Under the pieces are notes generated by a model that worked only from the letters and a program-made list of their open reading frames with translations, searched no databases and had not been told where the DNA came from. This document shows positions 1 through 57,541 of a stretch of 64,000 bases of DNA, in pieces (within the stretch, counting starts at the first letter, position 1; each line of letters starts with the position of its first letter). This stretch comes from Deltaproteobacteria bacterium (lineage in GTDB: Bacteria > Myxococcota_C > UBA6777), in NCBI GenBank assembly GCA_002731275.1, contig PCBK01000052.1, positions 1 through 64,000 on the forward strand, in the 5' to 3' direction. The translations under genes and the position numbers were made by a program.

Positions 1-632
1 CGTCTTCGCTTGCAATCATCCACCTCAACAAACTCTCCACCCTGAGCCTTCGGCTCTTCCCTCCTCTCAAGCCTTTCGAGAGGAGGGACCAACTAGCCAA
101 TATATACGGGCTTAGCTTGATTTTTGATCCGGCGGACGTTGCACTTGTGTCTCCGCAAACTCCCCTTATTCCACCATTTCATCCCCTTCTTACAGGCGGA
201 TATAGCAGGGCCATATCCTTGGATTCCCTTTTGCTCGCCTACTTTCAGTGGGTTTTTTGCGTCTTCACTTGCAATCATCCGCCTCAACAAACTCACCACC
301 CTGTCGCTCCGCTCCTTCCCTCCTCTCAATCCTTTCGAGAGGAGGGACCATTTTCCCGATGTGTACGGATTTTAGCTTGGAATCTGTTCCGGCGGACGTT
401 GCACTTGTGTCTCCGCAAACTCCCCTGATTCCACCAAATCATCCCCTTCTTGTAGGCGGATATAGCAAGGCCATATCCTTGGAGAGCTCGACTGCTTACG
501 AGTTTTCAGTGGGTTTTTTGCGTCGCACTTTGCAACATACGCCTCAACAAACTCTCCACCCTGTCGCTCCGCTCCTTCCCTCCTCTCAAGCCTTTCGAGA
601 GGAGGGACCAACTAGCCGATATATACGGGTTT
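1..632. repeat. Tandem array of a ~260 bp intergenic element (2.4 copies)
   Basis: Three successive copies begin at 1, 260 and 521 (periods 259 and 261 bp); the third stops near 632. Each copy carries a perfect 10-bp hairpin with arms CCCTCCTCTC and GAGAGGAGGG around a 9-nt loop (59-87 in copy 1, equivalents near 318-347 and 578-607). The first two also carry the block GTTGCACTTGTGTCTCCGC (138-156 and 398-416). Open frames here differ between copies, contain no recognisable protein motif and are not credible genes. The window edge cuts the array, so it may extend further upstream. Confidence 0.85.
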
Positions 633-633
633 A

Positions 634-660
634 TAGGTCGGACACAAGGCCCGACCCTAC
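634..660. repeat. Short dispersed hairpin element, copy 1
   Basis: The segment forms a stem GGTCGG / CCGACC with the 9-nt loop ACACAAGGC, flanked by TA on the left and CTAC on the right. Near-identical elements lie at 57516-57541 and, with compensating stem changes, at 20868-20888. It sits at the distal end of the repeat array. No gene is associated with it. Confidence 0.75.
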
Positions 661-718
661 AGGATTCAATCCAACATACACGTGTTTTTCGTTTGTATTG
701 TGATATGCCGTTTCATAT

Positions 719-1020
719 GCATCGCTCCCCTTGTCGACCGAAGCAAAGCGAAGGTCTTACAGGGGGAGCTGGCGGGCGAAGCCCGTCTGAGGGGGTTCTT
801 ACTCTTCATCTTTTGCATCGCTCCCCTTGTCGACCGAAGCAAAGCGCAGGTCATACAGGGGGGAGCTGGCGGGCAAAGCCCGACTGAGGGGGGTCTTGAG
901 TGGCTCCCCTTGCCTACAAAATTGGACAGCAGGGGGAACCTGAGGGGGTCTTGCATCGCTCCCCTTGCCTACAAAATTGAATGGGGGGAGCTGGCTGACC
1001 GCAGGTCGGACTGAGAAGGG
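719..1020. repeat. Cluster of four degenerate GC-rich palindromic repeats
   Basis: Copies start near 719, 815, 903 and 953. The first two are almost identical over about 80 bp and 96 bp apart; each begins GCATCGCTCCCCTTGTCGAC and ends in a GGGGGAGCTGG...CTGAGGGGG block containing a short hairpin (arms GCGGGC and GCCCGT in the first copy). The last two are shorter and replace the middle with CCTTGCCTACAAAATTG. This resembles the intergenic palindromic repeats that accumulate in many bacterial genomes. No coding capacity was recognised. Confidence 0.75.
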
Positions 1021-1052
1021 CTCCAAAGTCACGTATATATGGTTTGATAGGT

Positions 1053-1562
1053 CCCCCTTCCTCTTCCAGAGGATGGAGAGGAAGGGGGAAGGCCGGAGGC
1101 CTGGGGGATGGAGAGGTTTGTTGAAGGGGTGGTTGCAAAGTGAATGAAGCAAATGACAACCGCTGCAAGTTCGCGAGCAGTCAAGCATGTAAAGGATGTC
1201 GCTTGCGACATACGTATGATCATGAGGGATTGTGTCGTACATTCGGGTGCATTTTGCGAAGACACAAGTGCAACTGCCCCTGGATCAGCATTCTAGTATC
1301 CCCCGTGTATACGGTATAAATGCTCCCCCTTCCATTCTCCAGAGGATGGAGAGGAAGGGGGAAGAGCCGAAGGCTCAGGGGGATGGAGAGGTTTGTCGAA
1401 GGGGTGGTTGCAAAGTGAATGAAGCAAATGACAACCGCATATGTTGTCCGAGCAATCGAGCGTTAGGAGGATGTCGCTTGCGACATACGTATGATCATGA
1501 GAGATTGTAGCGTATGTTCGGGTGCATTTTGCGAAGACACAAGTGCAACTGCCCCTGGAGCA
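1053..1562. repeat. Second array of the ~270 bp element, opposite orientation
   Basis: Two direct copies start at 1053 and about 1325 (period 272 bp). The first opens with a perfect 12-bp hairpin, arms CCCCCTTCCTCT and AGAGGAAGGGGG (1053-1088); the second has a related stem at 1325-1361. Both contain GCGAAGACACAAGTGCAAC, the near-exact reverse complement of the block in the array at 1-632, so the two arrays are the same family in opposite orientation. Shared blocks also include CATACGTATGATCATGAG. No gene is supported. Confidence 0.8.
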
Positions 1563-5781: not shown

Positions 5782-6279
5782 ATGCACAACATTTTGGCCC
5801 TTCGTGGACGCCCCCTCCTCTCTTCAGTGTATGTATGGATAGGATGTGTCTCGCTGCTCTGCTTTGCAGGTTGCCAACCCCCAACCAAACCAGAGCAGGC
5901 GTTCGCCAACTTTCAAAAGTGGGCATCACAGCAAAAGGCCAAGCAGCTCTGGGCCCAACTCTCTCACAAGAGTCAACAACACATCCAAACCATCTTGAGA
6001 GCCCACCACGTCAAGACAACCCCCGCGCAATTCTTCGCAAAGGGTCAGGTACGCAAAGGTCGGACGTTGAGAAAAGATCCACGAAAAAAACCCATCATCA
6101 CGCCGAATAAAGCGACACTTTTCTTTCGGGATGAGTTTGAACAACTTGTGACCATCAAAATGGTGTACGAACAGAAAAAGTGGAAGTACGTGCTCCCCAC
6201 ACAAGATGTATCCCCCTCTCCAACCGCACCAACTGCGTCTCCAAAAACAGCCCCCACAACACGTCAAATCACCCGATGA
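5782..6279 (+). CDS. Small putative lipoprotein
   Basis: A 165-residue protein of no recognised family. The N-terminus has a hydrophobic stretch ending in the lipobox CFAGC (near residue 31), so it is probably lipidated. The body (about 37-150) is basic and helical near the N-terminus, with a beta-like segment (ATLFFRDEFEQLVTIKMVYE), and it ends in a Pro/Thr/Ser-rich tail. The pattern of a short helical region followed by strands resembles small DUF4878/NTF2-like lipoproteins, but this is a loose resemblance. The start follows AGGAAAG with short spacing. It converges on radA with only 21 bases between stop codons. Confidence 0.65.
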   Translation: MHNILALRGRPLLSSVYVWIGCVSLLCFAGCQPPTKPEQAFANFQKWASQQKAKQLWAQLSHKSQQHIQTILRAHHVKTTPAQFFAKGQVRKGRTLRKDPRKKPIITPNKATLFFRDEFEQLVTIKMVYEQKKWKYVLPTQDVSPSPTAPTASPKTAPTTRQITR

Positions 6280-6300
6280 AGAGTCTCCACAGCTTACACG

Positions 6301-7674
6301 TTAAAACAACGTTGAGAGCGCCTCATCCACATTGCTCACACCCAATAAAGTTGCCTTCTTGCTCTTTTTCAGACGAGCCCGGTTATTTTCGGGGATCATG
6401 ATCTGTGTAAAACCGAGCTTCTTCGCCTCTTGCATACGCAACTCAGCCTGACTCACACCTCGAATTTCACCAGCAAGGCCGACCTCACCAAAGATCGCCA
6501 TTTTCTGTGGCAAGGCTTTTCCTCGGAAGCTCGACGCTAGCGCCAACATAATCGGAAGGTCGGCGGCAGGTTCGTCGAGTCGGAATCCGCCCGCCACGTT
6601 GACAAAGATGTCCGAAGCCGTGATCTGCATCCCACCGCTCTTTTCGAGGACCGCAACCAACAGCGCGACCCTGTTTGGATCCACACCAGTGCACGTACGA
6701 CGTGGATTCCCATAGGCAGGGCTCCCAACGAGCGCTTGCACCTCAACGAGCAACGGACGACTCCCTTCAAGACAGACGGAGACCACAGAACCTGCGGCCC
6801 CAACTGGTCGTTGGTCCAAAAACAGAGAGGAGGGATTGCCAACCTCCACAAGACCGTTCTCCTTCATCTCGAATACGCCGATCTCATTGGTCGAACCAAA
6901 GCGGTTCTTCACCGCCCGCAAGATTCTGTACGGGTGTCCACGCTCCCCTTCAAAGTACAAGACCGTATCGACGAGGTGTTCGAGGACTCGTGGACCTGCG
7001 ATCATCCCATCTTTTGTGACGTGCCCGATCAACAAGGTCGAGATCGACTCCCTTTTGGCGAGGTGCATCAGACGCGCAGCCGATTCTCGGATCTGGCTCA
7101 CAGAACCTGGGGTGGATGAAATGTCAGGACAAAAGACGCTTTGGATGGAGTCAACGACGAGAAAGTCAGGTTTGCATTTGGTGGCTTCTTCTTTGATGCG
7201 CTCGATATCGACCTCTGCGAGCAAAAGCAAGTCATCGTTGATCGCCCCGATCCTTTTGGCTCTCATCTTGGTTTGCCGTAAGGACTCCTCTCCCGAGACA
7301 TAGAGGACTTTACGACCTTGCTGGACATACTCCATAGCCGACTGCAACGCGATGGTGCTCTTACCAATACCGGGATCTCCACCGAGCAGGATCAATGAAC
7401 CTTCGACGAGTCCCCCTCCAAGTACACGATCCAACTCGTGAATACCGAATTGTTCGCGCTGCATATCCTCTTCATCGATCGCGGTGATGGGGATGGGTTT
7501 GGTTTTGTCACTCAATCCCCCGCGAGCTGCGGCCTTCTCAGCCTGTACTTTGCCTCGCGTTTGCGAAAACTCCTCCGCAGTGTTCCAAGCTCCACAGCGA
7601 CTACACCGTCCAAACCACTTGGGCTCGCGGTTTCCACAATCTGTACATTGATACATCGTTTTGACTTTTGCCAT
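6301..7674 (-). CDS. radA: DNA repair protein RadA
   Basis: RadA is a RecA-like ATPase that drives branch migration of recombination intermediates. With the start at 7674 the protein has 457 residues, the usual length. It has the N-terminal zinc finger (C10, C13, C24, C27), a Walker A motif GGDPGIGKST at 98-107, the RadA signature KNRFGST around residue 250, and the C-terminal Lon-protease-like domain. An in-frame start nine codons upstream (7701) is possible, but GGGAG lies 7 bases before the 7674 ATG and the zinc-finger start MAKVKTMYQC matches the family. It is encoded alone. Confidence 0.96.
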   Translation of the reverse strand: MAKVKTMYQCTDCGNREPKWFGRCSRCGAWNTAEEFSQTRGKVQAEKAAARGGLSDKTKPIPITAIDEEDMQREQFGIHELDRVLGGGLVEGSLILLGGDPGIGKSTIALQSAMEYVQQGRKVLYVSGEESLRQTKMRAKRIGAINDDLLLLAEVDIERIKEEATKCKPDFLVVDSIQSVFCPDISSTPGSVSQIRESAARLMHLAKRESISTLLIGHVTKDGMIAGPRVLEHLVDTVLYFEGERGHPYRILRAVKNRFGSTNEIGVFEMKENGLVEVGNPSSLFLDQRPVGAAGSVVSVCLEGSRPLLVEVQALVGSPAYGNPRRTCTGVDPNRVALLVAVLEKSGGMQITASDIFVNVAGGFRLDEPAADLPIMLALASSFRGKALPQKMAIFGEVGLAGEIRGVSQAELRMQEAKKLGFTQIMIPENNRARLKKSKKATLLGVSNVDEALSTLF

Positions 7675-7994
7675 TCTTACTCCCACAACGAATAGAGACA
7701 ATCAATGACAGCAAGCATACACAACACACTGTCTCGACGTGTCATACAAAAACATCCCTCCCATGAGGATTGGTTTTTTTGCAGTCCGCAACCAATCAAC
7801 ACAAGAGACAGATAATAACAAGGCCCGGTTTTTTTGAAGAAGAAGACGTGACCAACGAGCAGGATGACAGGTCTTATTTCACAAGATCACATCTTCGAAA
7901 CAAAACGTGATACAATAGAGCACATTTTCGATAAAAAGACGACACGACCACACTGTCGGTCATTTTGTTCAAGCATTTTTTGGAGATATTGTCG
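7675..7994. other. Divergent intergenic region between radA and the MopE/WD40 gene
   Basis: This 320-bp gap must hold promoters for both flanking genes. A possible -10 element GATACAAT lies at 7909-7916 for the rightward gene, but no good -35 partner is visible. No gene or strong inverted repeat was seen. Confidence 0.4.
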
Positions 7995-10937
7995 ATGAGA
8001 AGAACGACTTCTCGTGTTTCATTTCGGCGCTTTTGGCGCATTGGAACCTTGTTTGCAGTCCTTTCCCTTTTGTCATTTCAGTTCCTCCTGACCTCATGTG
8101 CAGAGTGTCAATACGACTCAGATTGTACAGGAGATGACTACCTTTGCCAGTCCGGCGCGTGTATCCAAAAAGAGCCGACAAGACGGACACCTCCCACAGG
8201 CGACTGTCTCGATGGTGAGACTCGTTCGTGTTACAACGGTCCAGCCGGTACAGTTGGGAAAGGGCCTTGTAAAGAAGGAAAACAGTCTTGTGTTGGAGGC
8301 ACTTGGGGAAGCTGTGTCGGTGCGGTCATTCCACAAGCACCTCCCACCGGAAAAGCTGAAGCTTGCGATGGACAAGACAACGACTGTGACGGTACTGTCG
8401 ACGAAGAATGCCGCTGCACAGATGGCACCAAGCAAAAGTGCTTCACAGGTTCTGCCGCCAATCGTGGCAAAGGCATCTGTAAAGACGGCGAGCAAGTCTG
8501 TATCGACGGCACTTGGGGACAATGTCTCAACCAAAAGCTCCCACAAGCGGAGATCTGTGACAACATCGACAACGACTGCGACGGTGTCATCGACAACGAG
8601 GTCAAACGCGCCTGTAAAGGAAAGTGTGGTCCAGGAAATGAGATCTGCAAAGCCGGTCAGTGGCAGGCTTGCGACGCTCCCCAACCCACCGCAGAAAAGT
8701 GCGGCGATCAAAAAGACAACGATTGTGACGGTGGTGTCGATGAAGGCTGCGACTGTAACCCTGGCACCAAACAATCTTGCTATGGCGGTGCCCCCGCGAC
8801 AAAAACCATCTCTCCGTGTAAAGCCGGAAGCCAAACCTGCACCCCAGACGGCAAATGGCCCACTGAGTGCAAAGGACAAGTCACACCCATCGCAGAGAAG
8901 TGTGACGGTGTAGATAACGACTGTAACGGACGCATCGATGACAACCTCACAAAGACGTGTCAACGAGGTTGCAACACAGGCAACGAGGTATGTGAAGCAG
9001 GCAAGTGGGTCAAATGTAGCGCTGCAGCCGCAGATCCAGAGATCTGCAACAAAAAAGACGACGACTGCAACGGAAAAATCGACGATCTCCTCGGTGGTGG
9101 CACTTGTGAATGTAGCATCGGACAAAAAGAGGTCTGTTACACTGGTCCAACGAGCACACGAGGCACTCTCCCTTGCAAACCGGGCGAGAGGACCTGCCAA
9201 AACACTGGAAAATGGTCTTTTTGTCTCAATCAAGTCGTCCCCCAAACAGAACTATGTAACGGCAAAGACGACGATTGTGACGGCCAAATTGACAACACCC
9301 CCAAGACAAGCAACGCGCTGACCACAAAATGCTACGATGGCCCGACAGGAACAGCTGGAAAAGGCTCCTGTAAAGAAGGCGTAAAGCGCTGCAACAATGG
9401 AAAGTGGACCACTTGCCAAAACCAAGTCATCCCCAAAACCGAGACCTGTAACGGAAAAGACGACAACTGTGACGGTTCTGTCGATGAAAACCTGAAGCGC
9501 TCTTGCTACTCAGGCCCCGCAGGAACATCGGGCAAAGGTATCTGTAAGAGTGGCACCCAAACCTGCGCAGGTGGGACGTGGGGTGCGTGCTCAGGTGAAG
9601 TCACACCACGCGCAGAGACGTGTAACAACAAAGATGATAACTGCGATGGGACCGCCGATGAACGTCCAACCTGTGATCAATGCACACAAGGACAATCACA
9701 GGCTTGCTACACAGGTCCCACAAGCACAAGAGGACGACTCCCCTGTAAAGATGGACGCCAAAGCTGCCTCGTGAGCGGAAAATGGGGAACCTGTACAGGT
9801 CAAGTCCTCCCCCAAACAGAGACATGTAACAACAAAGACGACGATTGCGACGGTAAGATCGACGATGGCGTAACACAGCCTTGCAGCACTGTATGTGGTA
9901 AAGGGGCAAAAGTCTGCACAAATGGGACATTCGGTGCATGTAACGCCCCCACTCCCAAGACAGAAGTGTGCAACGCCAAAGATGATGATTGTAACGGAAA
10001 AATCGACGATGGACTCAACTGCTCTTTGCTCGCGACAACGGACTGGAGTGGGACCATTCACATTTGGGATCCCTACACACAAAAGAAATCCCGCACGATC
10101 AATGGCGGTGTTCGTATCTACGTCGCACGCTTTAGCCCCAACAGAAGTATGCTCGCGACAGGGACTTCTTCCAATCTCAAGATCTGGAATCCAACAACAG
10201 GCGCTGCGATCCGCACAATCACCACAGGAAGCACTGTGCGTTCTGTTGCGTGGTCACCAGACAGCAAGTTGATCGCCGTAGGACTGGACAGCGACGAAGT
10301 TCGCATCTACGACGCTTCTTCGGGTGCACAGAAGGCCAGAAACTCGACCAACTTTACCTCCAACATCCTGGCCCTCGCCTGGCACCCCAACGGACATTGG
10401 GTCGCTGCCGCTTCAGGTGGAAAGATCCACCTCCTCAGCACGACAACGTTGACACGGATCACTGCGCTCCAAACAGCGGGTGTTGCGAGTGCTTCCGAAC
10501 CAACGTACATAGACGTCAGTCCAAGCGGCCAATATATCTCAGCTTCTGTTGGAAGCTCGAAACTCGTCGAGCTGTGGAGTGTCACAGCAACTTCGGGTAG
10601 TAAGATCAAATCCCTCAATGTCCCAGACTATATCTACGAGACGCGCTTTGGGTTGAGTGGAAAATTCTTGCTGGGAACAGGTTACAGTGCGACGGTCATA
10701 TGGACTGTTGCGACACAAACCAAGTACGCCCAACTCAACTTCAGCAATACCTGGGTGTACTCAAGTCATATCGACACTTCTGGCAAGTATCTGGCGATCA
10801 CAGGCCGAGATGGGAACAACATCTCAACAGGCCACTTCTGGATCTACGACATCTCCACAAGCACACCAAAACAACTCCTTCGTGACACCACCACACATAA
10901 AAACAACTACGCTCGCTCCGTCGATTTCAGTCGATAA
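7995..10937 (+). CDS. Lipoprotein with ten MopE-type repeats and a C-terminal WD40 propeller
   Basis: A 980-residue exported protein. A hydrophobic segment ends in the lipobox LLTSC (near residue 36). Residues about 60-690 consist of modules of 55-65 residues, each with a CYTGP.GT.GKG.C motif, a G.W..C turn and a calcium-site-like CDGKDNDCDGxxDE box; I count ten such boxes. Similar cysteine/aspartate motifs occur in MopE-like surface proteins of myxobacteria and methanotrophs. Residues about 690-980 switch to WD40-type repeats (SGTIHIWD, SNLKIWNP, DEVRIYDA), predicted to fold as a beta-propeller. ATG at 7995 has GGAG 9 bases upstream; an earlier in-frame ATG at 7965 lacks one. The function is unknown: calcium-stabilised surface stalk plus binding head is an inference. 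Confidence 0.88.
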   Translation: MRRTTSRVSFRRFWRIGTLFAVLSLLSFQFLLTSCAECQYDSDCTGDDYLCQSGACIQKEPTRRTPPTGDCLDGETRSCYNGPAGTVGKGPCKEGKQSCVGGTWGSCVGAVIPQAPPTGKAEACDGQDNDCDGTVDEECRCTDGTKQKCFTGSAANRGKGICKDGEQVCIDGTWGQCLNQKLPQAEICDNIDNDCDGVIDNEVKRACKGKCGPGNEICKAGQWQACDAPQPTAEKCGDQKDNDCDGGVDEGCDCNPGTKQSCYGGAPATKTISPCKAGSQTCTPDGKWPTECKGQVTPIAEKCDGVDNDCNGRIDDNLTKTCQRGCNTGNEVCEAGKWVKCSAAAADPEICNKKDDDCNGKIDDLLGGGTCECSIGQKEVCYTGPTSTRGTLPCKPGERTCQNTGKWSFCLNQVVPQTELCNGKDDDCDGQIDNTPKTSNALTTKCYDGPTGTAGKGSCKEGVKRCNNGKWTTCQNQVIPKTETCNGKDDNCDGSVDENLKRSCYSGPAGTSGKGICKSGTQTCAGGTWGACSGEVTPRAETCNNKDDNCDGTADERPTCDQCTQGQSQACYTGPTSTRGRLPCKDGRQSCLVSGKWGTCTGQVLPQTETCNNKDDDCDGKIDDGVTQPCSTVCGKGAKVCTNGTFGACNAPTPKTEVCNAKDDDCNGKIDDGLNCSLLATTDWSGTIHIWDPYTQKKSRTINGGVRIYVARFSPNRSMLATGTSSNLKIWNPTTGAAIRTITTGSTVRSVAWSPDSKLIAVGLDSDEVRIYDASSGAQKARNSTNFTSNILALAWHPNGHWVAAASGGKIHLLSTTTLTRITALQTAGVASASEPTYIDVSPSGQYISASVGSSKLVELWSVTATSGSKIKSLNVPDYIYETRFGLSGKFLLGTGYSATVIWTVATQTKYAQLNFSNTWVYSSHIDTSGKYLAITGRDGNNISTGHFWIYDISTSTPKQLLRDTTTHKNNYARSVDFSR

Positions 10938-57515: not shown

Positions 57516-57541
57516 AGGTCGGACACAAGGCCCGACCCTAC
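57516..57541. repeat. Short dispersed hairpin element, copy 3
   Basis: Stem GGTCGG / CCGACC with loop ACACAAGGC, followed by CTAC, as at 634-660. It lies just past the PQQ-repeat lipoprotein gene and starts a run of short repeats. Confidence 0.75.

Follow-up and report, generated by a model that had tools for sequence, protein, structure and literature searches.

A modular folded repeat in outward-facing arrays at gene ends of a deltaproteobacterial genome

What are the two oppositely oriented repeat arrays with which this DNA begins, and is it their structure that is kept? The window, that is, the whole 64,000-nucleotide stretch analysed here, starts at base 1 of a contig (C3) in a 10.75 Mb genome of 200 contigs. 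The initial annotation had described two opposed arrays of one hairpin-bearing element in its first 1,562 bases, and both are present, with three units of subfamily A1 on the minus strand and two of subfamily A2 on the plus strand. According to profile matches, the A1 units occupy positions 1-108 (a partial unit, matched over these positions and cut by the contig end), 117-367 and 377-627, the last two being of the long-tip type and the third adjoining a hub, while the A2 units are found at 1032-1302 and 1304-1571, the second at the gene-side end and followed by two tRNA genes. Unit spacing is 259-260 in A1 and 272-275 in A2. The hub consists of a GTAG-tagged palindrome, GTAGGGTCGGGCCTTGTGTCCG, at 639-660 on the minus strand, and of B modules (GCTCCCCTTG...GGGGGAG hairpins, then CTGAGGGGG) with a related tail at 713-1000 on the plus strand. 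The palindrome has 160 copies in the genome at two mismatches or fewer, in hubs and alone, and no RAYT was seen for it; besides the copy at 639-660, the window has one of these at 57520-57541, on the minus strand. Elsewhere in the window, at 7965-10937, a 990-residue open reading frame encodes many cysteine repeats of the DNDCDGxxDE type and a WD-like C-terminal part.

The block that the annotation had seen in both arrays, GCGRAGACACAAGTGCAAC, is found at exactly four places in the window, two on each strand, against 0.00 in shuffled sequences even when two mismatches are allowed. When both arrays are read outward from the hub, which is how the sense strand is defined here, A1 and A2 are subfamilies of one non-coding unit, homologous from end to end. 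The unit starts with the spacer CGTRTATATCGG, followed by hairpin 1 (about 10-13 bp), hairpin 2 with a three-base loop, and a long stem; the order given previously (hairpin, ATATACG-like spacer, block) is correct if the tandem units are read in one direction. The spacer is present at both unit ends and is common to other modules, being ten times denser inside islands of these units than outside, and in the window it separates modules as CGTATATATCGG at 616-627 (minus strand). Hairpin 1 is found at 58-88, 317-347 and 577-607 in A1 (minus strand) and, with 13-bp arms, at 1052-1089 in the first A2 unit (plus strand, inverted repeat I16). Hairpin 2 is located at 44-56 in the partial A1 unit, as the allele GAGCC-GAA-GGCTC of the allele census when read on the sense strand (here minus), and at 1091-1101 in the first A2 unit as GGCC-GGA-GGCC (plus strand), the latter with a C(GNA)G loop. 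The long stem is imperfect, and is built of 13 bp, an internal loop, 3 bp, a second internal loop, an inner helix and a tip. In the first A2 unit its 13-bp arms are AGGGGTGGTTGCA at 1125-1137 and TGCAACTGCCCCT at 1269-1281 on the plus strand, the 3' arm overlapping the block. Four tip types occur on one core, namely long (A1), A2-type, short (about 60 nt between the stem arms) and T, and the units measure about 170, 235, 250 or 270 bases (range about 170-275). I rejected a coding function, as the stretch between the stem arms puts long and short units in different reading frames, and the open reading frames there are inconsistent among the copies.

These copies are not the sole ones. In the whole genome the 14-base core of the block has 281 matches with at most one mismatch, compared with 8 for a reversed control pattern, which amounts to about 270-280 copies in more than 100 intergenic islands. 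I sampled 106 islands with 287 unit pieces; further contigs hold more. The layout of the window recurs, as the sense strands point plainly outward from the hub in 22 of the 24 islands that have both subfamilies, and one more island contains that layout. The tips are ordered as well: long units adjoin the hub, and of the 20 T units that could be placed 16 stand outermost (Fisher p = 9e-5).

Sequence is conserved unevenly along the unit. Among the 250 columns of A1, 131 are at least 98% conserved, where 1.3 would be expected under a uniform rate, and 39 are less than 70% conserved; A2 is similar. As about half of the columns are invariant, internal-loop (unpaired) positions included, the copies do not decay freely. 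Identity is 0.838 within and 0.846 between arrays for A1, and 0.852 within and 0.838 between arrays for A2. An origin of the arrays by tandem duplication is therefore unsupported, as identity within arrays is about equal to that between them, for A1 also in islands well inside their retrieved stretches. The most similar pair of long units is about 93% identical, so that no copy gives the impression of being recent, although contig breaks could conceal some that are nearly identical. These data favour old, independent and constrained copies over a recent burst or tandem duplication, with the proviso that near-identical copies may be concealed or mixed up in a short-read assembly.

The assembly itself deserves attention. 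Because 69 of the 106 islands reach the end of the retrieved stretch, mostly a contig end, the repeat itself has probably broken the assembly, and the array lengths seen may fall short of the true ones. Some islands contain N, and two of them (L010 and L084) have about 430 nearly identical bases in common that end abruptly. Part of the pattern could on these grounds be an artefact of a fragmented and slightly contaminated genome; however, I regard this as very improbable, for the 31 islands well inside their stretches contain the same units and, for A1, show the same lack of a higher identity within arrays. Separately, one locus (L030) carries a large inverted duplication around a single gene (6200-6660 and 10030-10500), one copy of which has many N, and this duplication is probably an assembly artefact.

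Is the fold kept while the copies differ? It was proposed from the window that the copies vary in stem sequence and retain perfect pairing. The difference in stem (CCCTCCTCTC versus CCCCCTTCCTCT) exists, but mainly between the arrays, as the three A1 copies have a common hairpin-1 stem, and pairing is not perfect in every copy, since hairpin 1 of the second A2 unit is imperfectly paired. More informative variation than that of hairpin 1 is found in hairpin 2, hairpin 3 and the long stem. As single strands, the window units fold far better than shuffled sequences in all four foldings (z = -6.4, -5.1, -5.1 and -4.6). A set of 28 diverse units shows two-sided changes in 13 pairs and a covariation score of 0.269; shuffles reach 0.135, and slid versions of the structure no more than 0.085. 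In 150 units aligned to the model the stems covary as well, at 0.235 compared with 0.110 when shuffled and at most 0.059 when slid, in an alignment that leans towards the model. A free prediction by RNAalifold on the stem domain recovers the same outer stem, with double changes in 8 of 16 pairs. Under a stricter null that preserves phylogeny, hairpin 2 alone covaries beyond expectation.

A further line of evidence comes from linkage. In the A1 long units, polymorphic sites more than 30 nt apart are rarely associated (4 of 2572 site pairs at z > 6), and associations stay inside blocks of about 15-30 nt. Since polymorphisms farther apart than this are nearly independent, base pairing can be read straight from the linkage pattern: the strongest association over more than 30 nt in A1 is the predicted pair 87-234, whose partners lie 147 nt apart and are always paired (CG 41, TG 14, TA 10). 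The arms of the outer stem are linked to each other (V 0.54, null 0.28), and hairpin 2 shows no linkage to the nearer outer-stem arm, about 30 nt away. The strongest distant association in A2 is not a base pair, so that the argument from linkage depends on A1. Through the divergence and shuffling of the copies, pairing on one strand has been maintained. The proposal that structure rather than sequence is retained was thus right about structure, in that the stems covary and neither outcome named beforehand as refuting it was observed, but sequence is retained too, in half of all columns.

Pairing could also be kept by mutation instead of selection, if template switching at quasi-palindromes, a known process (PMC7202029), together with gene conversion perfected the hairpins without any function. 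Hairpins 2 and 3 do exist as few discrete self-complementary alleles, several hairpin-2 alleles are common to A1 and A2, and the limitation of associations to short blocks is of the kind that such events would leave. However, neither a covarying pair 147 nt apart across the long tip nor the invariant unpaired columns are easily explained in this way, and I consider this explanation unlikely.

With respect to the strand, RNAalifold scores the sense strand better, and on that strand G-U cells outnumber A-C cells by 308 to 66, a count in which few positions dominate and which comes from an alignment fitted to the model. The strand data say that one single strand matters; they do not tell RNA from DNA. 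In RNA, C(GNA)G loops stand out less than they do in DNA. In 187 of 200 units the loop of hairpin 2 is C(GNA)G, and GNA loops on at least two G-C pairs form extraordinarily stable DNA mini-hairpins (PMC4686876). For these two reasons the loops lean towards single-stranded DNA, without being proof of it.

A close rival, next after the REP/BOX-like reading that I prefer, is an expressed structured RNA family, in which transcripts would run outward from the hub and each unit would be a host-selected fold with exchangeable tips. The invariance of about half of the columns, internal loops included, would suit an RNA, as would conserved internal loops around a covarying 3-bp helix, the preference for G-U over A-C on the sense strand, and tips that swap while the core stays. 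On the other hand, no Rfam family matched (loose thresholds gave chance-level matches only), in three islands, scans for sigma-70-like promoters gave nothing beyond chance level, the C(GNA)G triloop is chiefly known for stabilising DNA, and the double-hairpin half of the unit occurs alone in other genomes. I therefore see the RNA family as possible yet rather less than probable. Among the natures first suggested for the element, a mobile unit and a structured RNA both stay in play.

The genomic location of the islands is biased. When the copies are mapped relative to genes, as had been recommended, 17 of the 28 islands with both flanks available lie between convergent genes, whereas among other gaps of 100 nt or more this holds for 30 of 231 (p = 8e-8, genes being called by a simple hexamer gene finder). 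Of 110 outer array ends, 86 face the 3' end of a gene, and the median distance to the stop codon is 37.5 nt. Convergent gaps are favoured by REPs (PMC3733652) and by BOX elements (PMC3049150) too, and this liking has been read as pointing either to a transcribed function or to mobile elements persisting in the places where they are least damaging (PMC3733652, PMC3049150).

Such convergent placement beside stop codons could alternatively mean that the arrays terminate transcription in both directions, or act as insulators, where two genes converge. When scanned in the direction of the flanking gene, A1 long and A2 units are about twofold enriched in terminator-like sites, with 0.43 per A1 long unit against 0.17 in shuffles. 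However, such a site is present in a minority of units (37% of A1 long, 26% of A2), a hairpin of 30 bp would suffice for termination, and the strand that folds better is the opposite one. Termination as the explanation of the arrays is accordingly, in my opinion, improbable.

Do relatives reveal where the unit came from? The collection includes five genomes of this phylum, all of one family, and in the other four a model of the whole core gives weak matches (best E 0.001). Two of these that were inspected, as well as matches in two unrelated genomes, cover the double hairpin alone. This double hairpin (CCCCTCTC..GAGAGGGG, then GTCGC-GNA-GCGAC and AGGGGTGAG) is built like the first half of the unit and stands alone, without the long stem, in a relative (G002) and in two genomes of other families (G148 and G295); I found no name or publication for it. 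Its sites are L142 1020-1107, L144 1501-1621, L143 1501-1564, L123 813-910 and, in the relative, L125 1501-1605, downstream of which a long array of 10-base repeats (CTTTCCGTGC/CTTTCCGTAC) is observed. The 386 genomes searched, its own excepted, yield no match to the long-stem model at E 0.001, and the four phylum relatives nothing better than E 0.87; a DNA match to the unit is absent from 40 genomes, and the block has no match in viral contigs. Going by these searches, the long-stem unit appears so far to be known from one genome only. Judged from sequence comparison, the unit is chimeric, joining a double hairpin that is REP-like and widespread to a private long-stem domain.

Regarding mobility, the genome contains four Y1 transposase genes (L118, L119, L120 and L121) with tnpB-like neighbours; all four resemble insertions of the IS200/IS605 type, and three of them are closely similar. 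None of the four is flanked by a unit, and one sits about 1.3 kb from an array. Derivation from IS200/IS605 was rejected, as neither subfamily profile matches the insertion sequence copies, just the array beside one of them. A RAYT or other autonomous partner was not found in the genome. For a comparison with MITEs, which carry terminal inverted repeats and target-site duplications, the units offer the spacer at both ends, and no target-site duplication or empty site was identified. An integron attC site looks unlikely, the arm ends having, in a comparison by eye, the wrong polarity for RYYYAAC/GTTRRRY.

The reading I prefer, held tentatively and at slightly less than an even chance, is that of a REP/BOX-like modular repeat which probably spread as folded single-stranded DNA and is retained at gene ends for its fold. 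The units would first have spread in this form through the action of an IS200/IS605/RAYT-type transposase, one that can no longer be recognised, and may have survived best after stop codons. They may now be retained as their folded strand acts at gene 3' ends, for which REP and BOX could be the model, these being thought to affect mRNA ends, transcription or replication barriers. A bolder proposition, which I find doubtful, is that the roughly 280 copies represent a structured RNA, or a structure of single-stranded DNA, of a new type whose tips and hairpin alleles are combinatorial. Set in polarised, ordered arrays at gene ends in a poorly sampled lineage, each copy would be under selection, with a part in separating convergent transcription or replication.

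Palindromic repeats of bacteria are usually seen as decaying mobile debris or as vaguely functional hairpins, and the present family makes the maintenance of a fold and the choice of strand testable. With about 280 copies whose polymorphisms are nearly unlinked beyond 30 nt, base pairing is visible in linkage without the need of a phylogenetic model, and the outward, ordered arrays close to stop codons offer a concrete system for the role of repeats between convergent genes.

Compared with known systems, the unit resembles the REPs in being palindromic, intergenic and of high copy number, with many copies at gene 3' ends or between convergent open reading frames and in a paired inverted arrangement (PMC3733652). 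Like a REP it is extragenic and mostly located beside gene 3' ends, and a GTAG-tagged palindrome is itself part of the hub. However, GTAG/CGTC-tagged REPs are high-copy palindromes of 20-40 bp (Di Nocera et al. 2013, PMC3733652), whereas the unit measures about 170-275 bp and just its first half is near a REP-like size. By eye, the A1 and A2 hairpins lack a GTAG or CGTC tag, in contrast to the hub module at 639-660, and the unit adds a private long stem with swappable tips as well as ordered arrays. With BOX of Streptococcus pneumoniae (PMC3049150) the unit has in common a modular structured build in which the number of parts varies, an excess between convergent genes, and an apparently old proliferation with slow present movement. 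While in BOX it is the number of boxB inserts that varies, here whole apical tips are exchanged and the arrays are ordered outward around a hub. The likeness to BOX is one of build and placement, and it extends to an exchangeable internal part, which in this genome takes the form of four tips on one core.
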